Below are positions 1-57,159 of a stretch of 64,000 bases of DNA, one piece after another (position 1 is the first letter of the stretch; each line of letters starts with the position of its first letter). Both the position numbers and the translations under genes were made by a program. The DNA is from Branchiostoma floridae. Its lineage: Eukaryota; Chordata; Leptocardii; Amphioxiformes; Branchiostomatidae. The stretch is taken from contig NC_049991.1 of assembly GCF_000003815.2 (NCBI RefSeq), forward strand, positions 8,409,921 to 8,473,920. Direction: 5' to 3'. Below the pieces are notes generated by a model. The model worked only from the letters and a program-made list of their open reading frames with translations, ran no database searches and was not told where the DNA came from.

Positions 1-1069
1 TTTGTAGAAATGACTATAAACTCTACCTGCTTCGCTCTCGTTATTTTCGGCGACCGGTAAGCCTCAAAACGCGTAAATTCCTGATCATATAATCCGTTTA
101 ATTTCTAATAGGTCCAACATCCGGTCCACCTAATTTTTTCAGGTCCAGTTTTTGAGGTACAATAAGAAAAGCCGGTTTTGTATTGGTACACCGTACCGGT
201 ACCCACCTCTAGAAGGCAGTAATGTAATCCCACTGTTTAGCTGTATGGATCAGATTCTGTAGATCCATAGGCAATGTTGTGGTCTTATATTCCAGTGCCT
301 GTTCAGGGATTGTGGCAGCTTCCTTAGGCACTCCTGCAGACGTGGTGAAGACTAGGATAATGAACCAACCAACAGACAGCATGGGCAGGTGAGGTACAAG
401 GGTACACACATGCAGCACACATGTACACTCACACATATACACACACACATACACATACGCACAAAGACGTGCACGCAAATACATGTACATGCACACTATC
501 GTCTACTGTGAATTGTTAATCAATTTAATAGCTGGTGTTAAAGAAATGTCCCTTCATCACCAAGGACATGTTTGAGTGTGAATGACTCATACCAGCTTAG
601 CATTTCTAATTAGACTTCAGGGTCTTAAAATGTGTGTCTATAGGTGGCTTTATTGAATAGCAAAATGTATGATACTTATCCACCAAGATGATAATTTCAA
701 GCAACAGTCTCTGCTGTATACCCAGGATTTGTCTTCTAGATAGATCTGGTGTGTGAAATTTATTGACAGTTTATCTCTGGACCAATCAGATCACTCTACG
801 CTCTTGTCACATGACGGGGCATCTGTTACAAATTACTAAGAAACCAGAATTCCTTGCTGCTCAAAACTTATTTACATGTGTAGAAATCCTCATTATGTAA
901 TTTACCAACTCAGATGACCTAATAGGATGTTGTGTGTCTGTAGAATGTGTCCTCTAAAAACTTGGAATTAGGGCCTAGGGATTTGGAGATGTGCTATTTT
1001 GTTCTATTGTTGGCTTGTTTTTATTACATCATGACTGCATTATGTGAGCATGACCTTGTTGTGTTTCAG
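1..1069 (+). other. Intron of the UCP4-like gene, no feature recognised
   Basis: Contains a CA-rich simple-sequence stretch at about 408-470. No preceding carrier exon (with the P-x-D/E-x-x-K/R signature) was found here, so it must lie before the window. Confidence 0.6.
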
Positions 1070-1112
1070 GGGAACATTGTATAGGTCGTCTGTAGACTGC
1101 CTTGTTAAAACG
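1070..1112 (+). CDS. SLC25A27: SLC25A27-like exon: third-repeat matrix segment
   Basis: A 43-bp exon after a TTTCAG acceptor and before a GTGAGC donor. It begins with the last base of a codon split with an exon outside the window and ends phase 0. It encodes G-T-L-Y-R-S-S-V-D-C-L-V-K-T, the stretch that follows the third P-x-D/E-x-x-K/R signature in UCP4. The other two frames contain stops. Confidence 0.8.
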
Positions 1113-4100
1113 GTGAGCTGTAGTACAATTAACTGTGCCTTTTGTCACACAAATTCATTTGTTTTTAATTATGATTGATAACTGTTTATAATTACTTTTC
1201 AGCCATACAAAACAAGTAGAAGGCAAGACCATTGCACCAATTTAAGTTTTTAATAAGGTGTTCCACAAGGGGTAATCCTGGGACCATTACTGTCCCTCTT
1301 GTATCTGCCTTTTTTTTTCATACTTCTACATGTATGGAAGTCCTGAAGCAGCCTTACTGTCAACACTTGCCATTCTTCTTGAAGTTCTTCATACTTCACT
1401 CATGTGGGTGCTCCAAATAGCATTGCCTATTCTGTATCTGTATATCCGATTTAACTCAGCCTTCCAGCACAACACACCAGCTTGAAAAAGTTCTGGCAAA
1501 TCAGTGGAATTGTTTTTATTGTAAAGTTTTATGATCTTTCTCTTTTGCTTGATCAAAGATACAAAAATTACACCTACTTCAGCCAGACCTATTTGATTCA
1601 AAAATTGAATCACATAACATCAAACCAATCAGCTCTTGGATGACCAATCACTGACAGCTTCAAAGAAATTTGGTTTTGTCTGAAAAAAAAATCTGGTTTT
1701 GTTCCCAAATTTAGGTGAGACATGAAGGATTCCTGGCTTTGTACAAAGGCTTCATACCCATATGGGGGAGATTGGTGAGTGTTGGCTTCTTTGTTGTCAG
1801 GCCAGTGTCACGTGTTGTGACTTGAACATGTTGTGTTGTCCTTTTACAGGTCAGAAAAGAAGGTGTCATGGCACTGTATAAAGGCTTCATCCCCATATGG
1901 TCACGAATGGTGAGTCCCATCTTTTTTTTATACCCATACTAGTACTGTAGTGTTGTGTACCTTGAAGTTCCTGTTTTATTACTTCAGTGAAAACAGATTG
2001 TTTTCGGTGTACTGTCAAACCTGTATTAGCGGCCACCTTTGCATAGCGACCACCTGGCCATTGCGGTGACTTTTTTTCAGTCCCTTGGATTTTTCCCATT
2101 GACCTAAGCATTAAGAGAGTCTATAGCGGCCACCTCTCCAACGCGGCTACGGCCACACGATTTCCCGTCCTATAGATACAGAAACTCATACAGCGGCCGT
2201 ATGTTACCCTGTGCCAGGTTTAAAATCGTTTGCGAGGATTTGGAGTTCCTGACAGGGTCATTTTGGCGGTAGCGGAAGGTACGTGTGACTTGAACGTTAG
2301 AGTGCAACTCATTGCCGGTGAATTTATCAACGTTCCGCCTGGCAATTGATCAAAATTTCCTCTATAGTGGCATTTTGTCTATAGTGGCCACACAGTGTTT
2401 GGAGCGGCCATATTTCTCCAGTCCCTCGAGTGGCCGCTACATGTATAGACAGGTTTGACTGTACATACAATCATGACTGTTTGTTTATCTTGGTGTCTAG
2501 GAAGTGTTATCTGAATATTGTAGAGTGACAGGATATGACATGGATAACTGTGTAAATGCCACGGTGGCCAGAAGGAATGAAAGGTAACGGTTTTGCCCTT
2601 TTCCAAAGCTGCTAGGCATGTCAGTGACACTGACAGGACCTTTTGAACTAATTTAAAAGGGAAAGGTCCCAAGATAGGAGATGAAAGGTTGTCTCATTTC
2701 CTGTCTTCCTGCTATGTCAGGGCTCAAAATACCACCTGTATATGCAGGTTAGTGCAAGTAAAATTTGAGCTGTGTAGGTACATGTATTTCTGATGTCTAC
2801 CTGCACCTAACCTGCACTGGTCCACGTACTGGGTTTTATACACAATGTCCTATGATTTAGGTGTATGTGAATTGTAATTAGCTGCATTGACTGTTACCGC
2901 CTATTAAGTATAAAAGAAAAAAATAGCAATGGTTCCTCAACAATTTTAGTATGATCTATTCTTTCTAAATTCAGAGTGGTGCAGGTAATTTTCAATGTTA
3001 CCTGCACCAGTGCAGGTATGCAGAAAAAAGTATTTTGAGCCCTGTATGTGGATGTTGCCCTATGGGAGCCAGAGGGAAATGCTTTAGACAGAATCAGGGG
3101 ATTATTTACAATGATTATTGATAATGAACTAAACAAAAATTCACAAACATTCCAAATATTTCATAGACATACATGTACAAATGTACCAGATCTTTGATTA
3201 TTTGATTTGAACAAGTCCCAAATAGTACTGTAAATCTTGAAATATTGATAGTTTTATGTTGAACTTCAGATTTACATTATATATGTTACCCTCATCACCT
3301 CAGCAAGCGCCTCCTTTTCCCCAAACTGAAAAACTGAAGAATCAGCCTTTTCAAACTCATGCAAATTAATTTTTGTCACCATGCAATATTTATATGGCCT
3401 AGGATCGCAAAAGCAAATTTAAAGATTTTTCTTCCTCTTCCTCTTTGAAAATGTGTATCCCACAGTTAAATTGTGAACTTGTTGATTTGTAGTTGAAGTT
3501 TGCAAGCCTACTTTGTGTCTTGTAAGATTGATTAAGAATTATACAAGTTATAACAAGACCTGAAGCCACATTAATCAGGCAGTATTTCCGTCAGCATTTT
3601 AAATCAGGGATAAAGTCCACTAGCCCTATTGTCCAGGGCAAGTGAAAGTGCTGTTCGGGCAAGTGCATGTCCTACCTCACTTGTCCGATCGGGCAAGTAA
3701 GATTTTTCCATTGATTTTAGTGCAATTTTGATATACTTGTTACTTTTTACAGTCATGACATCAAGCAATTGTCTACAGAGAATTCCATTGATGGAAGTGA
3801 AAATGCATGAACTAGAATTTTGGGCAAGTGAAAAATTNNNNNNNNNNNNNNNNNNNNNNNNNNNNNNNNNNNNNNNNNNNNNNNNNNNNNNNNNNNNNNN
3901 NNNNNNNNNNNNNNNNNNNNNNNNNNNNNNNNNNNNNGCTTGGAGAGTACATTTTTTATGTGCTTGCCCGATAGGACAAGTGGATTTTAGAAAACTTGTT
4001 CAACCCTGTAAATCATCCTTTTTTTGCAGTTTTAACTTTGCCATTTTCCCAGTGACTTGTAAAATTATGACACTATGAATACTGTAAATGCATTTAAGTT

Positions 4101-7100
4101 CGCTGGGATTTAAGTTCGCCGTAGCGGGAAAAGGGACTTTTCGTGGTGGATTTAACTTCGCGGTAACACCATAGACTGCAGTCTAATACCATAATAGAAA
4201 AATGTTCGCGGTGCAGTTCAGGGTAAAGTGGTCAATGCAAAAAACCGCGAACATTTCTTCAATTACAGTATGTGTTTCTATTGTATAACAGTTACTACTG
4301 TACTACAGTACTAGTATTGCTTTAACTGTCAACACAATACACAGGTTATAGCCTTCTTTTTTATCCTACTGCAAAACCAAAGCCTGCAAAAATCAATAAA
4401 TTTACTGTTACAGTACAGTCATGCTTCAGTTTGGCCTGTGCTTGAAGTCATCCCCTAGGGTTTAATTAAAAGTTTGCAATTTTGATATCTCAGTCTGAGC
4501 CATAACAATCTTGAATTATTAAAGGCCACAGTAGCATCGTTTCTGACTTATCAGCTTTTTCCACAATTTTGCCAAATTATCAAAATTATTCCAATTGTCT
4601 TCTTTGGTTTATTCTTGTACTTAAGCTTGGCGTTTGTCCCAGTTGATACCAAAGGAAAGTTTTATGTGCAGATTTAAGCTGTGCTACTGTGTTTGTAGTA
4701 TCTAGCCAATATGAAAAGCAGCTAGGGCATTTGCAGTATAACTTGCAGCCATATCTTATTTCACCCCTTGAAACTGTACAAGGTACGGAAGTTTTCCTCA
4801 GACTCTGTTTTATGCTTAACACATGTCTTCACATGTCTTCCAGCTTAACACAAAGTCTTTAAATATGAGAAGCAAAGATTAGCCTAAGGAATGGACTTTC
4901 TAAGAAAAAATTCTGTAAAGAAAAATCAACTAGACATGCTTCATAATGCATTCTACATGCTAAGCATACAAGTCCCTAGCACAAAATTAATATGTTTCAA
5001 AGTATTCATCACTTTAAATCTTAATTTGAGAGCAATGCATGTACAGGCCAACCCTCTTTAATATGTATTACTTAAAGACAGATTATGCAGTTGTGATTAG
5101 GATGGCTATAAGCTTCCCCCTAATCCATTTCTGGTGATTGCCCCTTAAGCTTCAAAGACAATTTTCTTCAAGATTAGAAATCCTTGAAAATGGTTGTTAA
5201 ACGAGCCCACCCTCGGGAAAAGACCTGAAGGTTCTTATGTAAACCACAATCATCATCTTAATTGGGAACTCTCGACAAGGCTTCAAGGCATAACTGGAAT
5301 GCAACAAGTTAATTTTGCAAGATAAAAGTTTGACAAATAAGAAAGACGTGTATCCCTCTCTTAAGTTGGACTGGAAAATTGGCGATTAGTTTATAAATCC
5401 ATATAATATAGCAACCAGGTCTGACAGTACATAAAGGATTATATCTAGTATGCACCTGTCAGTATATGGATAATGAGAAATGGTTTTGGGCATGGTCCAA
5501 CTCAACATGTAGACATGAAAGTATGATGACAAACCACATGGATACTCAGATATCCTGTAGGATTTGGGGGTACTTAATCATACGTCTACATGTAAGCTTT
5601 TAATTATGAATGTTTGTCAGAAGAGTTCTTAAAAAGACAATAAGTTTCTGGTAACTTAGAAAGTTTAAGGGTCAGTAACACTAGGTTCAAGTTCTTGATT
5701 GTCAGATTTTTTAACATCATTTTTTTCAGATTTAACAAGAAAGACCATTTATGATGTAAATCAAATACATGTTGTATTATGGCACCAACATTGGTTAAGC
5801 CAACATAGGGGTCCAAATTTCTTATTTACTCAAATTCACACGAGTAGGGTGGTCGGGGTATCATCCTGCAATGGTTCTGAGTTTTAGTAAATTTCGAATT
5901 AAAATGGTGCATTCTAAGGTATCTTGAGGGGCAAATTATTGTCAGAGAGGTCACATGCAGTTGAAGACTGAGTGGCAGCCCTGGTCAATCAGAATTTTAT
6001 GCTTGTCAGAGGATCTGCTTCCCAGTGGAAGGGCTTCTATTTTTTATTAAATTTAGAACAAATTGACACCTGGACACATGCCTGTCAGTGTTGTACATGT
6101 AGGTTCTTTATCATGCTTGAGGTGTGGCTTTTCTTAAACAAAGGATTTCCAGATTAACATTCTATCCCAGAAAACATTGAGGGAGTGGCTAGGTCGTAAG
6201 TGCCTTTCCCAAGGGCACATCACTAGAGCCTCAGCAGCCCAGTCTATACATGTATATGATTGTATGATTGTTCTAAACAATTTGTTTATTTCTCCTGCAG
6301 GCCCCCTGGTCACTGACCTTCTGGCTGTCCTATGAGCAGGTCCGACGGTTGTCAGGGACAACGTCCTTCTGATGATTGACATCTGTCCATCACAGTCATG
6401 TGACCAGCTGCCATCATGCCAACCTTTGTGTTGACTGATGTTGACACTCTTTTCCTCTACCTCTCATAGAACTAATAAGCCAGTTCTGATGTTGAATTTT
6501 GCGTGACATGTGAAGCATTATGCATAATATATGTCAAAGTTGAAGCCCCCTGAGACATAGCCTAGTTACATCTGGACATGGTATCAAGCATGGCAAAGAC
6601 AGGTCTTATTTATAGCGTCACCTTTGACCTGTTGCATATGCAGTTCTAACTGTGAACTTACTTATTAAAGTAGTGGCTGGTTCTATAGTCTATGAGTTAG
6701 ATATTCATGACAGCCTAACATGAACTGGCAGATATTTCTAAAATGACAGTTTCAATGTAAATATGGTGACCTTATCTCAACATTGATTTGTCTCCAATAT
6801 CATAAGAATTTATGTTAATGCAAAGCATATCAGAATAATGTTGAATAATTTTCAAACTGCATTTCATTATGCATTCCTTTTTTTCCCTTCAAACAGTGCA
6901 ATGTTGTATTTTGCATTTGATTATGGAAGTCTTTTAGTCAACAAAGAAGACACAGAGGAGACGTAGAAAATTGGCTAACCTTCCGTATTTGTATAAATTT
7001 GCCTAAAGGTCCCTAGAACCATGATGTCCCACAAAAAAAAGCCTACATCATAGTACCTAAACATGATCACAAGATTTAGGGAGTGGGCTATGATAATAGA

Positions 7101-7482
7101 TTTGTTTCTTCCTGGCCTCTCTTCCTAGACTGTTGTTTATTATATTACTATGACTGTTATATAAATGCAACTGCTGCCCCCAAAAGGAAAGAGACTGGCA
7201 GTTTGAAGACAGGCCTTCCAAACTGTATATGTCCATTAGATGTGTACGATTTCAAAAGTTACTGAACACAAGACATCCCCCCCCCAAAAAAAAATGCAAG
7301 TTTAACCATTCTATACTGTCTGTTGTTTTTCATTTCTTGGAAGCGAGGATTTGTACATTGTGTGAAGGACATGAGTCATTCCACTAACACAGCTCCTTTT
7401 GCCACCACAGGCCCCATGGTACATAGTGTTCTGGATGTCGTATGAGAAGTTACTACAGGCTGCCGGGTCACAGTCATTTTGA
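1070..7482 (+). CDS. SLC25A27: UCP4-like mitochondrial carrier (SLC25A27), 3' part with duplicated exons
   Basis: Seen: five coding segments on the plus strand, all flanked by AG/GT, join in frame: 1070-1112, then either 1715-1774 or 1850-1909, then either 6301-6372 or 7411-7482. The joined product is the end of the third mitochondrial-carrier repeat: a YRSSVDCL segment, EG-x-x-ALYKGF, P-I-W-x-R, then APW-x3-FW-x-SYE and a short tail ending SF. Known: this arrangement and the short tail after the YE motif match the C-terminus of UCP4, an inner-mitochondrial-membrane six-helix carrier of the uncoupling-protein branch. Other UCPs and SLC25A14/A30 share the ALYKGF and PW motifs but fit the tail less well. 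The N-terminal two thirds lie before the window. The gene converges on PARN. Oddity: the last two coding positions are each present twice. Orthology to SLC25A27 is a strong family call; alternative splicing is inferred. Confidence 0.85.
1257..1310 (+). mobile_element. LINE reverse-transcriptase remnant in carrier intron
   Basis: Translates to GVPQGVILGPLL followed by S-L-L-Y-L, the strand/turn motif of non-LTR reverse transcriptases. Flanking frames are broken, so only a short degenerate piece is recognisable. Confidence 0.6.
1715..1774 (+). CDS. SLC25A27: SLC25A27-like duplicated exon, copy A1
   Basis: A 60-bp phase 0-0 exon (acceptor TTTAG, donor GTGAGT) encoding 20 residues: V-R-H-E-G-F-L-A-L-Y-K-G-F-I-P-I-W-G-R-L. 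It aligns without gaps to copy A2, which starts 75 bp after A1 ends. The two copies share 15 of 20 residues and 45 of 60 bases, and seven codons differ only silently, which suggests both have been kept under selection. Either copy can follow the exon at 1070-1112 and precede either terminal exon without changing frame. Confidence 0.82.
1850..1909 (+). CDS. SLC25A27: SLC25A27-like duplicated exon, copy A2
   Basis: A 60-bp phase 0-0 exon (acceptor TTTTACAG, donor GTGAGT) encoding V-R-K-E-G-V-M-A-L-Y-K-G-F-I-P-I-W-S-R-M. The final R-M followed by a PW exon is closest to the vertebrate UCP4 pattern, so A2 may be the ancestral-type copy. Including A1 and A2 together would also stay in frame but would insert 20 extra residues into a conserved helix-loop, so I infer they are alternatives. 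Confidence 0.85.
2011..2463. mobile_element. MITE-like element, ACAGTCAAACCTGT family, copy 1
   Basis: A 453-bp block bounded by inverted ACTGTCAAACCTGT and ACAGGTTTGACTGT. Inside are repeated GCGGCCAC motifs close to the ends. Same family as 14939-15827. No coding capacity seen. Confidence 0.75.
2718..3044. mobile_element. MITE-like element with CAGGGCTCAAAATA ends
   Basis: A 327-bp imperfect palindrome: CAGGGCTCAAAATACC at the left and TATTTTGAGCCCTG at the right, with internal inverted TGCAGGT motifs. A 5-bp TATGT direct repeat abuts both ends. CAGGG termini are common in hAT-type elements, but the class is inferred. A related half element ends near 59463. Confidence 0.65.
3600..4000. repeat. 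GGGCAAGTG-rich inverted repeat interrupted by a gap
   Basis: Left of the gap, CACTAGCCC and several GGGCAAGTG motifs; right of it, CTTGCCCGATAGGACAAGTGGA in the opposite sense. Probably one MITE-like copy whose centre is missing. Confidence 0.45.
3838..3937. other. Assembly gap, 100 N
   Basis: Exactly 100 N, probably a placeholder of unknown true size. Confidence 1.
4080..4270. mobile_element. MITE-like element with TACTGTAA ends, copy 1
   Basis: 191 bp bounded by TACTGTAAATG and its near-complement ATTACAGTA, containing TTCGCGGT and GCGGGAAAA(G)GGAC blocks. Clearly the same family as 59053-59249. Confidence 0.75.
4271..6300 (+). other. Long intron between carrier exons A and B, otherwise unremarkable
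   Basis: AT-rich sequence without recognisable coding motifs, RNA genes or clear repeats. Confidence 0.5.
6301..6372 (+). CDS. SLC25A27: SLC25A27-like terminal exon, copy B1
   Basis: Acceptor TCTCCTGCAG, then 23 codons and TGA: APW-S-L-T-FW-L-SYE, followed by a basic QVRR stretch and a tail ending T-S-F. This is the sixth transmembrane helix and C-terminus of the carrier and the better match to vertebrate UCP4. No AATAAA lies close to the stop; an ATTAAA is present near 6664. Confidence 0.88.
   Translation, partial: APWSLTFWLSYEQVRRLSGTTSF
7411..7482 (+). CDS. SLC25A27: SLC25A27-like alternative terminal exon, copy B2
   Basis: Same length and phase as B1 (23 codons plus TGA) after the acceptor CACCACAG: APW-Y-I-V-FW-M-SYE, then a neutral tail ending Q-S-F. 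It shares 11 of 23 residues with B1, all at the family's conserved positions (APW, FW, SYE, G, SF). The basic tail of B1 is replaced by K-L-L-Q-A-A. Using B2 requires skipping B1. An AATAAA follows the stop by 15 bp, so this copy has its own candidate polyadenylation signal. Confidence 0.78.
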   Translation, partial: APWYIVFWMSYEKLLQAAGSQSF

Positions 7483-7497
7483 CGGCTTCTCATCAAC

Positions 7498-7503
7498 AAT
7501 AAA
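7498..7503 (+). promoter_or_regulatory. Candidate polyadenylation signal AATAAA after exon B2
   Basis: An exact AATAAA 15 bp after the B2 stop. Position is plausible but the 3' UTR would be very short; another plus-strand AATAAA occurs at about 11,173 and could serve a longer UTR. Confidence 0.35.
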
Positions 7504-10500
7504 CTTTTATAATACGAAGTATACAGTACATGGTTGTAATTATTATAGTAACCACATGGTTGTATGTACCTGTAACAGCATTCATCTGTCAATATTCTGT
7601 ATGTATGTAAGATTTTTCTGTGAGTTGTTTCACTATTACTTTTGATTAGCATTTTGTAGCAAATGGAAATCAATGTATTTGGCTGAAAATCTAGGTATTT
7701 GTCCTAAGTCACTGTTTAAGTGTGAAATCAGGGTTTACCACAGCTTAAGATTTAATGCTCTAGTTTCAGCTCCTGGCGTGATTTGACCTAATTTGACGAT
7801 ATCTTTTTTTTTTGTCATATTAGACATTAATTTTGACTGTCAAGATGACAAAGTGGTCATGATTTTTCACTTTGATAAACACAAAAATCCTAAAAAATTA
7901 CAGAATATTGGGGGAAATTCTTGTTCCCCACTTTAGAATAGCTGATTTATAATCTGACATTAACTCTACCATTGCATCAGTGTACATATTGTGATGTTGT
8001 AAATTTTGTATACGTGTCAGTGTTAGTGTATGGATTGCAATCTTGGATAAGTGCCAAATTCTAGATCAAAGTCTCTCAGTAGAGATAAATATCAGGATCC
8101 TTACCAAAGGAATGGGCCATTCTGCATCGGTAGATTTCCCAAGTGGAGACTGAATTTTAAGATCAATTCACCAAGAAGGTAGAACTTTTCAACTTCGGTT
8201 TGTGTCACTTCAGATTGATGGAATGACTAGAAACTCTGGATTTATGAATTGGAATTCACCCTAACACATTCCTAAATGTAGCATCTCAATTGGAGTCTCT
8301 TATAGGGAGAATCAAGGATACCAGCAGAATCAAGAATTCACCCAGATTGCAATCTCTGCCCAAAGATATACATGTATAACGGTATATTGTTAGTGCAATA
8401 TTTGCTTCATGTTGAAGATGAGTAGTATGTGATGTAACATCAGACTGTAATACTCAGGGAGGAAAACCCAAGATCTGTCTGACTGTATATCAGTGATGGA
8501 AGATTGTAATTACCAATCAAACTATAACGCAAACCTGTATTTTTGTGACACAAAAGTTTGAATTATTCCTTTTCCTTGTTCTTACAACACATGGATATCT
8601 ACAAAACAACTGAGTGTGCCACAAATGTATAGTAGATTGGAATTATACAATTGTATGTGAAAACAGTCTTTAGAATATTGTCAGTTGTAGTAGGGAAGGA
8701 AAGTACACACATTAAATCACACACCTGAGATGCGCAATGTTTTTTAGTTGAATGGGTTTTATCACTTATCAGCTTATGAAATAATGGTTGTCCATGAACC
8801 TGTTTTATTTTTATCTCTCTAAATTGTTCTGGATTCCAGTCATGCTCCTTTGAGGGACATGAAACAGGGTACATGAATTTGGGGATCACATATAATGGAC
8901 ATCATCATCTGGGAGGTACATTTTACATGTCTCACATATGACATGCAATTCTTCACAAAGCTTACATATATATACTAATAATTGGTTTATTTGTTCAAAG
9001 CAAGAACAGTAAAATACATGGCGTCTTATAGGAGAAGACGCTTAATTGTGCACTTTAGAATGATTCTTATGCAAACATCGATACAATTACAAGGAATAGA
9101 ATAACAACTACAAAAACCTCTTCTGATACAAAGTAGTGAAAGAAAACTGCAATACATGTAGTTGATAAATAGATATGAGAGACGTTTTCAGGTACTTGTA
9201 TTCAAAAGTTGTGTGAAATATGGGATGGGGCTGTTTTATAACAGCATCCTAACACCATACCGATGTAAAAGTATTGCTGAGCTGGAATAATCATCAACGT
9301 GAAATAAGAATTCAAGTTTGACCATGAACCTGTTTTATCTTGATCTCTCCTTTCAGCCTTCTATTTCTATCATGACTTGCCCAACCTAAAAGACGTACAA
9401 TCTAAAGAAGTGAATTATAGTGGTCTGATATGTTCCCATTTGCACGTTTTTTTTTGTAACAGAATGGTAATGGGTGTTCGGAAATTAACCATTGTTTTAC
9501 ACTGCTTATGACAAATATTTTATATCCAAGCTACATGTATCTAACAACGTAAGAAGCAGAAGTCTTTATGTGCACATTGGTGCCAAATTATATTGTAGAG
9601 AAGCAATCAGAGGTCCAATCTAGAGCTAGGATAGATACCAGGCTACTTAAAGATGCAACGTTAACCCCTTCTTGGGACACGCACCACGAGAGATGCAATC
9701 ACGTATCATCCACCTATCTCCTGAGAACACATTCCAGTCATTTCCTGTAGCCAGATATAGCAAGGCCAGTCCTGGAGAGTCGATAACAACCCTCACAGGG
9801 CAGATTAAGGCTGCTGACCCAGCTATGGTCTCTGCACTCCTTAAAAGCTTTTACACCTGCGGGAGAAGGTCTACTTTATCTTTAGGTCCCTAGGAACACA
9901 CCTGTGGTAGGTACGGGCTCTTATTGTAATGTTTTGGTGCTGGATTGCCTTTATGGCACGCACTTGTCTTTAATCGAAACAATTTCAAGGAAGCGAGACG
10001 TTAACGTATCACTCCCACAAAGGGCCAATGACTTCTTGTCTTATTTCCAATCCTAAAGAGTTTTTTTTTGCAAAACAGACAAGCAAACACAGACACAGAG
10101 AGGATGCTTTGTAATCATAGTTTGTAAATACTATTGCTTAGTTATTGCAACCGATGCACACTAACATTAAAAGAAGCAGACTTCCGTTGAAGTGCTACAA
10201 ATTGGCAGCAGCATCAAATTCAGCACCATGGCTAGTGTCACATCAAGTATATGGCTACATCAGGATTTTCTACTGTTATCTCGACCATGGTCACTTCTTG
10301 GTGTGATTTGACCTAATTCTGATGTTCCTTACAAGACACACCAATTAGGGTCATGGTTTTTATTCATCATTAGCGGCAAGGAGAGCACACGCAAACATTG
10401 GAACAAGTTGAAACAAGGGTTCGGGGACATTATTGGGTTTTGTAACCATTGCAACTATTTTTTGGCTCATTCACAATTATCTGGTTTAAAACAGTGGTTA

Positions 10501-37826: not shown

Positions 37827-39344
37827 GGGTCTACCGAAAGTGCGAAAAGGAACGAAAAGGAACGAAAAGGAACGAAAAGGAACGAAAAGGAACGAAAAGG
37901 AACGAAAAGGAACGAAAAGGAACGAAAAGGAACGAAAAGGAACGAAAAGGAACGAAGTATGAAGCAAATTCAAATAAAATCGATGGAAATATTAGGAAAA
38001 CTGTGATCGGCAAATGCATTTTGCGGCTTGTTCCACGAAATTCCTATAGCAATGGTTCAATGGAGGAATGAATATTGATGAGACCTATCTATGCATATCT
38101 ATGTTCATGTACGTGTTAATGTGGTTATAACATTCCTTAGAATATCCATATTACATTTATATTATAAAATTTCACAAGAAGAAATGGATTATGTTGAGAA
38201 CGATTGCGCATATTTTATCATAAAAAGCCATGCTATGTGGATATAGTTGTTTAAAAAATGCAATGATAGCAAAGTTACAAGTATATGTATTGCACAATTT
38301 GTAAGAACTTGACCTTAGAGAAATTTAGGTCGAATGTTCGAACCCAGGGAAGTCGACGATCGGAAGTTCGAGCCCAGCATGTTGGGAATTATTCTTCCTT
38401 CCTTTTTTTTCACACTTTCATTAATATCAATACAACGCCTTAAATTTGTTTTGCAACCAGGACATCTAAACCCGGCATTGGGATTTTTTTATCATCAGCT
38501 AGGGCCTGATGTCGGTCGCAAGAGGCAGAAATTTATTTGTATTGAATATGACGGAAAATTGTTGACAGAAATTGTATTTCCCAATATCCTTTGCACAAAT
38601 TCCTCACGTTGGCACCTTTCTTCCCGCCAAAATGATGAATACTCATTGTACAACTTGATGAAATCTCTTTGGTACAATGTATATATGTCTCTCCTTTTAC
38701 AGCTTTTCTTTCGTTGTGAACGAGCGAGAAGATATGTCTCCAGTCTCCAGAAAACCATGTTGTTGGCCCTGTTGAAAGGAGCTGTCATGCTCGTGGGGCA
38801 GCAGTTTATTAGCATATCTTTCCTGACCGGATTTCGCGGGTCATTTGCATGCGGCGCTCCCCTCTAGGGAGAATAAAAGCCACCCAAATACAACAACAAC
38901 GTTACAATCTTGCCTCATCCTGAAAATGTATAATAATCGATATTCATCTACCACCCACTGAATTTTAGTCCTTACTTTCTTATCTCAGTTCCGTTTCTTT
39001 GTATTTCGCAGATCTTCAAAGAATAATTTAGCCACACAAAAACAACAGCCTGAAACATAAACAGCGCTGTAAAAATTTGATAATGTCAAATTCTCGGTAA
39101 AATAAAACACGTTTTATAGGCTTCTAACGCCCGCAGTACCGATTCCTTATATTCTCATTGATTTTATTTAAGTTTGCTTCATACTCCATTCCTTTTCGCT
39201 CCTTTTCGTTCCTTTTCGTTCCTTTTCGTTCCTTTTCGTTCCTTTTCGTTCCTTTTCGTTCCTTTTCGTTCCTTTTCGTTCCTTTTCGTTCCTTTTCGTT
39301 CCTTTTCGTTCCTTTTCGTTCCTTTTCGCACTTTCGGTACACCG
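37827..39344. mobile_element. Foldback-type DNA transposon, 1,518 bp, with subrepeat arms
   Basis: Ends GGGTCTACCGAAAGTGCG (left) and, reverse-complemented, CGGTGTACCGAAAGTGCG (right): 16 of 18 match. Each arm then carries a 10-bp tandem repeat, AACGAAAAGG at the left (ten units, 37851-37950) and CCTTTTCGTT at the right (twelve units, 39201-39320), followed by a matching inner part with GTATGAAGCAAA and AATAAAATC. Arms are about 180-200 bp. An 8-bp duplication GCCTTGAC flanks it. Long arms made of tandem subrepeats are the hallmark of foldback (FB/TU-like) elements; 8-bp duplications occur in hAT and a few other superfamilies. No transposase is recognised, so it is probably non-autonomous. 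Confidence 0.85.
38334..38867 (+). other. 177-codon open frame inside foldback element
   Basis: Starts MFEPREVDDRKFEPSML and contains hydrophobic stretches (PSFFFTLSLISI; LLLQLFF). No DDE or other transposase motif is seen. May be chance, or an unknown cargo frame. Confidence 0.15.
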
Positions 39345-45404: not shown

Positions 45405-45965
45405 CGAGGGGCGTTCAATAAGTAATAACTCTGACTCATTTCCCATAGAAGGAGATTAATGAAACTTGGCACAGTTATTAGTCTTTCTCTTCATAGGAAC
45501 CACACAGAGTTATGCATTTCTCCCATCGTTTGATGCAGCTCTGGACACCGTTTTTGTAGGACACCCCAGGTTGGTCCTCCAACAGATGCCTCATCAATGA
45601 CAGAATGGGAGCTGTTTCCACAGACTTTCGGCCATGTTTGAATTCAGGATGCCAGCGTTTTACAAGGTCATATGATGGGGCATCATCACCATAAGTTTCT
45701 TTCATTTCATCAAAAGTCTCCTTTGGTGTGCGTCCTTTCAAGTACAAAAATCGGATCACTGCGCGACACTCAACTGGCTCCATTTCACACCTGGTCCATT
45801 TCACACCGAACTCAGTTCAAACACCAGTAAATCAGAAACCACAATTAGTTCAAAGCTCTTTTTTGCAACATAAACTGTAGAGATATGAATCATTACACAT
45901 ACAAAATTTCATCTAGATCAGACAACTGGAAGTTGGTCAGAGTTATTACTTATTGAATGCCCCTC
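45405..45965 (-). mobile_element. Internally deleted mariner element, 561 bp, TA-flanked
   Basis: Inverted ends CGAGGGGCGTTCAATAAGTA and, at the right in reverse, CGAGGGGCATTCAATAAGTA, continuing through ATAACTCTGAC; both ends are flanked by TA, the mariner/Tc1 target duplication. The minus strand carries an open frame of 108 codons (45478-45804): an N-terminal helix-turn-helix (CRAVIRFLYLKGRTPKE, YGDDAPSY, VKRW) joined directly to the C-terminal end of the transposase (IKRWEKCITLCGSY). The catalytic DDD domain is missing, so it cannot transpose by itself. Confidence 0.9.
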
Positions 45966-45969
45966 GTAT

Positions 45970-46510
45970 TACAGACATGACTCTGTGAGTGTAACACATT
46001 TGTACGTACAGGTGTACAACAGGCGTGTCTCTGTTGTGTGTAACACACCTGTACATACATGCGTATGACAGACGTGTCCCTGTTGTGTGTAACACCTCTG
46101 TACGTACAGGCGTATGGCAGACGTGTCCCTGTTGTGTGTAACACACCTGTACGTACAGGTGCATGATAGACGTGTCCCTGTTGAGTATAACACACCTGTA
46201 CACACAGGCGTGTGACAGACGTGTCCCTGTTGTGTGTAACACATCTGTACACACAGGCGTATGACAGACGTGTCCCTGTTCTGTGTAACACATCTGTACA
46301 CACATGCGCATGGCAGACGTGGCCTATTGAGTGTAACGCACATGTACGTACAGGTGTGGGACAGGCGTGTCCCTCTTAAGTGTAACACATCTGTACGTAC
46401 AGGTGTGGGACAGACGTGTCTCTCTTGAGTGTAGCACATCTGTACGTGCAACTGTACGACAGGCGTGTTTCTGTGCACTGAATACTCTGTACATACAGCT
46501 ATGTGCCACC
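45970..46510. repeat. 49-bp minisatellite, about ten units
   Basis: The word GTGTCCCT recurs at 46074, 46123, 46172, 46221 and 46270, exactly 49 bp apart; units contain GTAACACA-CTGTACGTACAG and GACAGACGTGTCCCTGTTG. Flanking units are more diverged. As 49 is not a multiple of three, all three minus frames stay open, which produces spurious Cys/Val/Thr-rich frames. It abuts the mariner's right end. Confidence 0.92.
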
Positions 46511-54223: not shown

Positions 54224-54708
54224 GTACGTTCATTTCCCCCCCTAGCAATATATAATACATCCACCATTGCTTCCTTTTTGTAATGCAAACCTCATCCTAC
54301 CACCTTCATTGCTTATGCATCACAATCCTTTGCCTTCTGTCTGCTTTACCAGTAAAAATATATAGGAAACGCAAAACCCTTGACCCAAAATTTACCACAA
54401 TAGATAACACTTGCCTGAAATTAATTTCAGTCATATTCATAATCAAATTTGAATGGGGGTATACGGTGTGGTGTTAGCAATAAATTGTCCGTTGCAGATG
54501 CGGATTATCTTATTACGAGTGTCCTTGGCAGGTGGGTTGTCATCACTGCACCAGTCAAAACATATTGTATGTCCACACCTGTAAATCAGCATCCATTCCC
54601 ACAAACTCACTCCCTACCATGATATACTGACACGCCATTGTATAAAATTCCCAGTCGATTGCCATATGATATTCAGTTATTCCCCAGGTGTATACATCTT
54701 ATAGATAT

Positions 54709-55017
54709 GGTAATATGAATATTACTGGTGATTGCTACATGGTCTTCTGTGTTGAAAGCTTTGAGATTGTATGCTCTTGTTGTTGAGTATTTTGAAGCCC
54801 TGTCCCAAAAATATACATTTATAATTGCCCACTGCTCTAACAGGTGGTTAAATGTTGGGTGGTTAGGTGGTAATATGAATATTACTGGTGATTGCTACAT
54901 GGTCTTCGGTGCTCAAAACTTGGAGATTATATGTTCTTGTTGTGTAGTATTTTGAAGCCCTGTCCCAAAAATATACATTTATAATTGCCCACTGCTCTAA
55001 CAGGTGGTTAAATGTTG
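54709..55017. repeat. 160-bp tandem duplication in PKC intron
   Basis: Two units (54709-54868 and 54869-55017) both start GGTAATATGAATATTACTGG and share ATTTTGAAGCCCTGTCCC and ACAGGTGGTTAAATGTTGG. Only a few differences separate them. Confidence 0.9.
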
Positions 55018-57159
55018 GAAGGCTCTCTGTGTTTTTCATGCCTTTAGGGTGATTTTTATGCTGTAAAACTGCCTTGTGTGTTTCCTGTGTATGCGTTGGA
55101 TAAAATCAGGGATTTCTTGTAGAGAAATTTGACCTTTCTTTCTTTGTTTTTGTCGGAAAGAGTTTTTTTCTTTTAAACATCCTGTTTAAACTGTGACACT
55201 GAATAGGATCAGATTGAACCATTTGCTTTGAAACAGTTCTGTGAAAAATGCAGTATGTTTCTTATGTGTTTTACTGATAGGAGTTAGGTTAGATGAGTAT
55301 TGTGAAATGATATTATGGAAAAAATGCTAGTGAGATGAATGTAATAAAAAAATTGCAAAAATGCACGAAATAGAAATTTAGGCCAAGGTTTTCCTGGTTG
55401 ATTTGTTAGACATTAGAAGATATGTCAGAGTCAGACATACATTTGCATTTCATGTCTCTCTCACCCAAGCTGCATATTATTGTGAAGATATGAAATTAGC
55501 TAATCTTTAATGTCTTAAGATAATCCCAAAGTCTCAAGTTCAAGTTAGTATATTTTTGACCAACAAGAGGTCACCCCAATTTTAGTTATTGTTTCTGGAA
55601 TTTTTGAAACTGTTGATGCCAAAATATGAGCTTTCTGGGGTTGTTTTATAACCTGATTGGGATTTTTAAAATTCATATCACAGAAATTGAAACGAGAACC
55701 ATGACATTAAATTTTCATTGCCTTAAAGCAGGAAAGGTTGTTTCAAGTAGTACATTGGGATATTGAGGCTTGATAGCAAGAAATAAAGCTGTTAGCAAGG
55801 AATTAAAAATATTCCATGGCTTTCAGTTCTTAGTAACAGGCCCTCCCCCGCAATGCGTCTTCTATACTCAGGCTTTTATAGCTTAAAGGTCTAAACAAAA
55901 ACTAGCTGCGGTAGCAAAGACGTTGAAGGCTGTTTGGCTTTTTTGTGGATCAATATTGATCCATGAGACACATTAACAGTATTTCTTCGTTATTACGGTA
56001 TGTTCAGCTAAGTGAACTGTGATTGCTTGGATCTGTCAATACACAATTCTAAGTGGGACATAATTTATGTGGTCCAGCATTTGGGTGGGCCAATAGGACA
56101 TTGGATTTGGAACTGTTGGTATGGTTCTCCGTATTCTAGTACTGTAAATAAAGGTATCTGATGTATTCATACACATAACCTGTACTGGTCAGTGTACGTG
56201 ACAAAACCAGCGTTCGCAACTAGTAAGGACAACAAACACTAACATACTTTGCATTCTTTGAAATAATAGAGAGTGATTCTTTAAAGAAGCACCATTTAAT
56301 GTGTAGATAACATGATTCAAAATGGTAGTATTAGGGTTACATCTTCAAAACATTGTTGGTCTATGCCACACATGTTCATTCTTTGTAGTAGACAAACTAA
56401 GAATACACCTAAGATTACAACATTTTGAATGGTTATGTAGTATTACAGAAGAAGTACTGTAGAAGCAGCTTGAGAACATCACTAGATCATAGTAAATGGT
56501 GAAGAAAAAAAGTTGATTGTTTGATGCAGTTTTGTTTAGGTGCTACCTACAAAAAAAGTACAGTACTTAATAATACTTGCATAAAGTTTCTGTTTCCTGG
56601 TAGGAGGGACAGGGAGATTTTTGTTTGTTTTAATAGCTCTGTAGTACATTAAAAGACATATTTGCAGTGTCACGAAGTTGTTGTGAAATTAGGTCACCCC
56701 ACAAAAAGAAGAAAAAGAAAAGATTTTAACTACCATGAAAGTGTCAAGATTTACGTTTCAGCTTCAACATAAACCATTAAACGTGAAACATAAACGTTAA
56801 ATTTTTTCAACCCTGTACATTTAGAACACCAAATATAGAGAAGTGTAGAGTGCATCTAAGAGTTATATGTCCAATCAAAAACAGGTTCTTGCAATTTTGT
56901 TATAGGTGTATGTAAGATTTGTTGTGCAGGTGTGTAGGTTTACATGCAGGTGGATTACTAGGACAATTGGTGAAGGTACTTATCTCTTCATACCATCTTC
57001 TTTTCTTGTTGTGTCTGTGTACTGTTGCTAAGGGCTTACACTAATCTTGTGCAGATAATCTCTGAGCCCAAGGATAGCAATGTTATCTGTCAAGGAAAGA
57101 ACAGGGGACAACTGGAGCTATGAATCACTGATAAGAGTAAAAACATTGCTAAACGCTAG
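55018..57159 (+). other. PKC intron 3, no feature recognised
   Basis: AT-rich intronic sequence. No C1B exon and no clear repeat found. Confidence 0.5.

Follow-up and report, generated by a model that had tools for sequence, protein, structure and literature searches.

Does a mitochondrial carrier gene of the lancelet choose between two versions of one internal exon, and is this the only such choice that the gene makes? The question arises at the 5′ end of the stretch of DNA analysed here (64 kb, hereafter the window), which falls within a carrier gene on the plus strand that we take to be UCP4-like (SLC25A27). An initial annotation had singled out two adjacent exons, A1 and A2, as having the form of a mutually exclusive pair, and their coordinates (1715..1774 and 1850..1909), 60-bp lengths, 0-0 phase and AG/GT borders all hold on recomputation. 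Its exon set and junction list were incomplete, in that a homologue of the last exon at 7411-7482 had been overlooked and the junctions 1774-7411 and 1909-7411 were absent. Judged from the exons, the gene looks like one carrier in which an internal exon has been doubled and alternative last exons come after it.

Specifically, we propose that a single uncoupling-type gene of the SLC25 family underwent tandem duplication of an internal exon, A, and likewise of its neighbour, the terminal exon, B, that the A copies would be used exclusively of one another and the B copies as alternative last exons, and that up to four carriers could result. We consider this scheme as a whole probable, though well short of certain.

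Layout of the gene and its duplicated exons

The anatomy, the homology, the reading frames and the lack of a second copy of the other exons tested are direct observations. Upstream of the A pair, the window holds two shared exons on the plus strand. The first (296..388) encodes helix 5 with the PADVVK motif and is open in the frame set by the preceding exon; its start is placed at 296 because that exon, once joined, ends in phase 2. The second (1070..1112) encodes GTLYRSSVDCLVKT, including a split codon. Then follow, on the same strand and in the order A1-A2-B1-B2, exon A1, encoding VRHEGFLALYKGFIPIWGRL, an intron of 75 nt (1775..1849), exon A2, encoding VRKEGVMALYKGFIPIWSRM, and the two last exons, B1 (6301..6372), which encodes APWSLTFWLSYEQVRRLSGTTSF and then a stop, and B2 (7411..7482), which encodes APWYIVFWMSYEKLLQAAGSQSF and then a stop. 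Each last exon has its own acceptor and stop codon, and each is followed on the plus strand by a candidate poly(A) signal, recognized as a motif match only: a variant proximal ATTAAA for B1 (6664..6669), one of several variant matches there, and a canonical distal AATAAA for B2 (7498..7503), which starts 16 nt beyond the B2 stop codon and is the sole AATAAA within 6301-9500.

Both pairs are clearly homologous. A1 and A2 agree at 15 of 20 residues and differ at 15 of 60 bases, spread over 12 of the 20 codons, so that the identity and the seven silent codon differences given in the initial annotation were reproduced, with five replacement codons alongside; by codon position the base differences number 7, 1 and 7. 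The likeness is not due to chance, since A1 finds A2 in a tblastn search of the 64-kb window with E = 3.4e-8 while its next match has E = 0.45. B1 and B2 are more diverged, with 11 of 23 residues identical (47.8%), 12 different, 25 of 72 bases changed and the stop at the identical place; here B1 finds B2 with E = 1.3e-6 and its next match in the window has E = 0.16. The same tblastn searches of the 64-kb window gave no further copy of the A or B exons (next matches E 0.16 or worse).

Splice sites were scored with approximate human weight matrices, by which the acceptor and donor of A1 score 5.0 (among the highest 10% of AG dinucleotides in the window) and 8.9, those of A2 score 11.4 and 10.3, and the acceptor of B2 scores 9.3. 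The earlier description of the splice sites as good suits A2 and both donors, the A1 acceptor less so. Because its acceptor is the stronger, A2 is perhaps used by default and A1 under regulation, but this is a guess, since the acceptors of the other exons range from 1.0 to 12.2 and two of them, belonging to presumably constitutive exons, are no better than that of A1 (5.0 and 1.0). Adjacent, homologous, equal in length and phase and bordered by intact splice sites, A1 and A2 have the anatomy of a mutually exclusive pair, and on sequence grounds this is the best reading of them. The form proposed in the initial annotation is thus retained, with the shared exons single-copy in our searches; exclusivity itself is a prediction, which the frame would not enforce.

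Carrier family, divergent residues and possible selection

As in other members of the SLC25 family, PF00153 recognizes repeat 3, along with portions of repeats 1 and 2. The family is marked by the motifs Px[DE]xx[KR], [YWF][RK]G and, at the gate, [YF][DE]xx[RK] (PMC7611780). The lancelet gene has PADVVK and YKG, and its gate motif reads YEQVR in B1 and YEKLL in B2. All four pairings of A and B copies are recognized by the Pfam Mito_carr model, with 68.9 bits for A1-B1, 66.3 for A1-B2, 71.0 for A2-B1 and 68.4 for A2-B2, and without exon A the score falls to 30 bits in two pieces. The closest solved relatives by sequence are the UCP1 and UCP2 chains 8g8w, 9fzq, 8hbv and 2lck, which are other members of the uncoupling-protein group than the lancelet carrier and from which our residue map was drawn. 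Against the UCP2 chain (2lck) A2-B1 scores 84.2 bits, followed by A2-B2 (82.2), A1-B1 (74.8) and A1-B2 (73.2); against UCP1 it scores 62.9 bits and the other three 59.1, 59.1 and 55.8. The inner copies, A2 and B1, are by these alignments the more canonical, and we infer that they may be the ancestral ones.

In human UCP1 numbering, in the HMMER register that places the exon A arginine on R277, exon A corresponds to residues 259-278, which comprise the matrix helix h56, the second cardiolipin motif and the beginning of helix 6. The two copies, A1 and A2, diverge at 261 (H/K), 264 (F/V), 265 (L/M), 276 (G/S) and 278 (L/M), and have in common E262-G263, the cardiolipin motif II Y268-K269-G270 and the contact point R277; all four A/B combinations accordingly retain E-G, Y-K-G and an arginine at the place of R277. 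The changes had been described as falling beside the last helix, which does not hold for all of them, since in the UCP1 alignment G/S and L/M flank R277 within helix 6. Exon B runs from residue 279 to the end and supplies the rest of helix 6, the cytoplasmic gate and the C-terminus. In its alignable part B1 and B2 differ at 282 (S/Y), 283 (L/I), 284 (T/V), 287 (L/M), 291 (Q/K), 292 (V/L), 293 (R/L) and 294 (R/Q), so that the gate pair E290/K293 is an acid with a base in B1 and Glu-Leu, with the base gone, in B2.

Some of these places have known roles in UCP1, where R277 binds a GTP phosphate and N282 hydrogen-bonds guanine; the hydrophobic cavity residues include L278 and W281, and the cytoplasmic salt-bridge network includes E290 and K293 (PMC10413660). 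Two successive and independent splice choices might, in consequence, let the animal exchange a carrier that is nucleotide-controlled and tightly gated for one that is nucleotide-insensitive and loosely gated, a reading that we regard as doubtful. If true, B2 would swap the position that contacts the guanine of the inhibitor (N282: Ser to Tyr) and remove the salt-bridge base (K293: Arg to Leu). It is tempered by UCP1 itself, where the corresponding gate place of repeat 1 is occupied by the non-basic Q100 (PMC10413660); the loss of one gate base is evidently tolerated in the family and is by itself no sign of decay. For carriers of the UCP4 type, both the transported substrate and nucleotide control are still debated.

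The number of silent differences had been taken to suggest that both A copies are maintained. A simple Nei-Gojobori count gives dN/dS of 0.14 for the A pair and 0.47 for the B pair. We also calculated the chance that one copy, evolving neutrally from either copy as the starting point, would show no stop and no more replacements than observed. When the neutral copy takes all the changes, this chance is 0.0021 and 0.0011 for the 15 changes of the A pair, and 0.068 and 0.031 for the 25 changes of the B pair; when it takes 8 of the 15 (A) or 12 of the 25 (B), the rest being silent, it is 0.32-0.35 and 0.41-0.48, respectively. The claim of maintenance is therefore upheld against a neutral copy that took all 15 changes (P 0.001-0.002), but not against one that took 8 of them (P 0.32-0.35). 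Selection on both A copies is, from these counts, likely but not proven, and selection on both B copies, for which even the all-changes test is weak (P 0.03-0.07), is no more than possible.

Four comparisons of the flanks gave no significant homology (P 0.08-0.43), and for this reason neither duplication looks fresh. We also considered a single event that copied A-B as a block and rejected it on the order A-A-B-B and on these same four flank comparisons; two separate exon duplications would be the simpler history.

The main rival to the proposed scheme is that A2-B1 is the only working carrier, A1 and B2 being remnants of the duplications that are seldom, if ever, spliced in. A2-B1 indeed tops all three comparisons (UCP2, UCP1 and Pfam), and A1 or B2 could be a decaying copy because the acceptor of A1 is weaker than that of A2 and because B2 lacks the basic gate residue; nor is neutrality rejected for a copy on which roughly half of the changes fell. 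However, A1 and B2 are free of stops and have kept their exon ends, their lengths, the position of the stop and the family motifs save the gate base, B2 has a good acceptor as well as the closely following AATAAA, and the missing base has its counterpart in Q100 of UCP1. Taken together, we find it unlikely that only A2-B1 works.

Proposed exclusivity and choice of last exon

In the scheme that we favour, usage, exclusivity, its steric mechanism and the functional effect are inferred. Frame or nonsense-mediated decay would not enforce exclusivity, since joint inclusion of 60 + 60 bp stays in frame, and joint inclusion and joint skipping would simply add or remove 20 residues. A1 and A2 would probably be kept apart by the intron between them, whose 75 nt would leave too little room between the A1 donor and the branch point. 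Of the eight introns measured in the gene none is shorter, the next being 155 nt. With an approximate matrix, the top predicted branch point is A1820, 45 nt past the A1 donor and 30 nt short of A2; the runner-up is 50 nt from the donor and other candidates 35 and 51 nt. In the mammalian spliceosome the minimum distance from donor to branch point is about 50 nt (PMC6692369), and among 629 human clusters of exclusive exons 57 had a distance below 50 nt and were classed as potentially subject to steric interference (PMC5740500); this limit comes from mammalian and viral introns and may not be that of the lancelet. The predicted short distance is nevertheless the best available reason for exclusivity. 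A similar mechanism operates in alpha-tropomyosin and in OGDH exons 4a/4b, where too short a donor-branch point distance enforces exclusivity (PMC6692369, PMC7969005); as these sources describe it, the branch point there was mapped experimentally and lies unusually far from the acceptor, whereas in the lancelet it is predicted and the intron itself is short.

RNA pairing of the docking/selector kind was rejected as the cause of exclusivity, the region 1640-1940 folding no better than its shuffled versions (z -0.02, 100 shuffles). Three inverted repeats are listed for 1113-2600; one of them, 1751-1767 with 1891-1907, joins A1 to A2 at 82% complementarity and lies inside the homologous coding sequence, centred about a palindromic CATATG.

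It could also be argued that A1 and A2 are cassette exons, both includable, and that the carrier may then be 20 residues longer. Joint inclusion would be in frame, and the 75-nt intron is not impossibly short, with branch-point candidates at 50-51 nt from the donor. Against this, the joint product would carry the matrix helix twice, and the beginning of helix 6 twice as well, in the middle of a folded repeat, and Pfam splits it into two stretches, where the higher total (86.4 bits, or 81.7 bits with B2) arises from counting exon A twice. We hold joint inclusion to be improbable.

Returning to exclusive use of A1 and A2, the choice between B1 and B2 would be made differently, by splicing in competition with cleavage and polyadenylation. 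The up to four resulting carriers would have a common fold, with cavities that vary at UCP1 positions 278 and 282 and outer gates that vary at 293. Tropomyosin genes likewise combine an internal exclusive pair with alternative last exons, the same order of choices in one gene, in an unrelated protein. A gene whose splicing altered, within the last helix, the cavity and the gate and nothing else would amount to a natural mutagenesis experiment on gating.

Within the carrier family, exon choice is already known from the mitochondrial phosphate carrier SLC25A3, which like the gene described here has a mutually exclusive pair (exons 3A/3B) and whose two isoforms are unlike in their affinity for substrate, their transport rate and the tissues that use them (PMC2636774, PMC7611780). 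SLC25A3 is another carrier, its choice concerns exon 3 and not the end of helix 6, and the parts of these sources that deal with it mention no second duplicated exon. The lancelet gene would thus be a further candidate for exon duplication in a family for which an effect of exon choice on kinetics is known. A double exon choice in one carrier gene is, on the sequence, a well-supported candidate, and the kind of choice is one that the family already shows (PMC2636774); the arrangement A1-A2-B1-B2 was not described in the titles and abstract openings among the literature matches listed.

Rest of the gene, copy number and neighbouring features

Genome searches were made in the window's own assembly (513 Mb, 431 contigs) and score the best candidates only, so that the match counts given here are lower bounds. 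Five further carrier exons lie upstream of the window on contig C13. Three of them (8395722-8395835, 8395991-8396053 and 8399320-8399404) connect in a single open frame, and the other two (8403767-8403879 and 8407969-8408053), joined to 296-388 and 1070-1112, form an open frame into all six of the A/B products tried. The first exon was not found when sought by one motif only, and neither was the helix-3 exon upstream, where a 198-N gap (C13:8399887-8400084) lies within its expected interval.

Between C13:8380000 and window position 8000, a span of 38 kb, there is no second copy of the seven other exons tested; the strongest extra matches are those of exons 3 and 6, which occupy equivalent places of repeats 1 and 2 and find each other (E 0.003-0.008), followed by E 0.04. 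Nor is there a second copy of 296-388 or 1070-1112 in the window (next matches E 0.03 or worse). In the 513-Mb assembly the A1-A2 DNA has one place only among the matches listed, and exon 6 finds its own place at 100% and at least three others at 43-54% identity. A query of repeat 3 gave, up to E 1, at least 33 matches; beyond the gene, the best three listed are 42, 50 and 42% identical; as context for the UCP4-like label, the best-scoring other carriers listed here are therefore 42-50% identical to repeat 3. With A1+B2 as query and E values up to 10 there were at least nine matches, four within the gene, and among the non-gene matches listed a piece on contig C12 is 62% identical over 26 residues. 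A second UCP4-like gene was rejected, none having been found among the genome matches listed, and one gene with two duplicated exons rather than a second gene would be the simplest reading of the searches.

The linkage of A to B rests on the scaffold, because a gap of 100 N (3838-3937) parts the two pairs. That B2, or A2 plus B2, belongs to a second tandem carrier gene or is an assembly artefact such as a misplaced allele, as this gap, two more further upstream and the two expected exons not found might be taken to hint, is highly improbable given the single copies of the shared exons in these searches, the one listed genome place of A1-A2, the mere 75 nt between A1 and A2, and base differences of 25% (A1/A2) and 35% (B1/B2), which exceed the expectation for alleles.

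Elsewhere in the genome, the repeat-3 query meets two carrier sequences in C14:16625800-16633798, both at 42% identity; they share a strand, are separated by about 7.5 kb and are possibly a tandem gene pair. In the window, 110 of the 274 open frames (58 aa or more) were scanned for domains and gave one match each to HTH_48 (Mos1 transposase), C1_1, CAF1 and DUF4408, and ten plus-strand frames rescanned singly gave no match. The window has no Rfam match at gathering scores and no tRNA according to ARAGORN. It does contain several tandem repeats: two arrays of one 10-nt unit (CGAAAAGGAA, complement TTCCTTTTCG) at 37843-37956 and 39189-39328, 1.2 kb apart and in opposite orientation, with 100% and 98% matches; a minisatellite at 45965-46468 with 10.3 copies of 49-nt units (82% matches), through which open reading frames pass; and at 54708-55018 a tandem pair of a 160-nt unit whose members are 94% alike.
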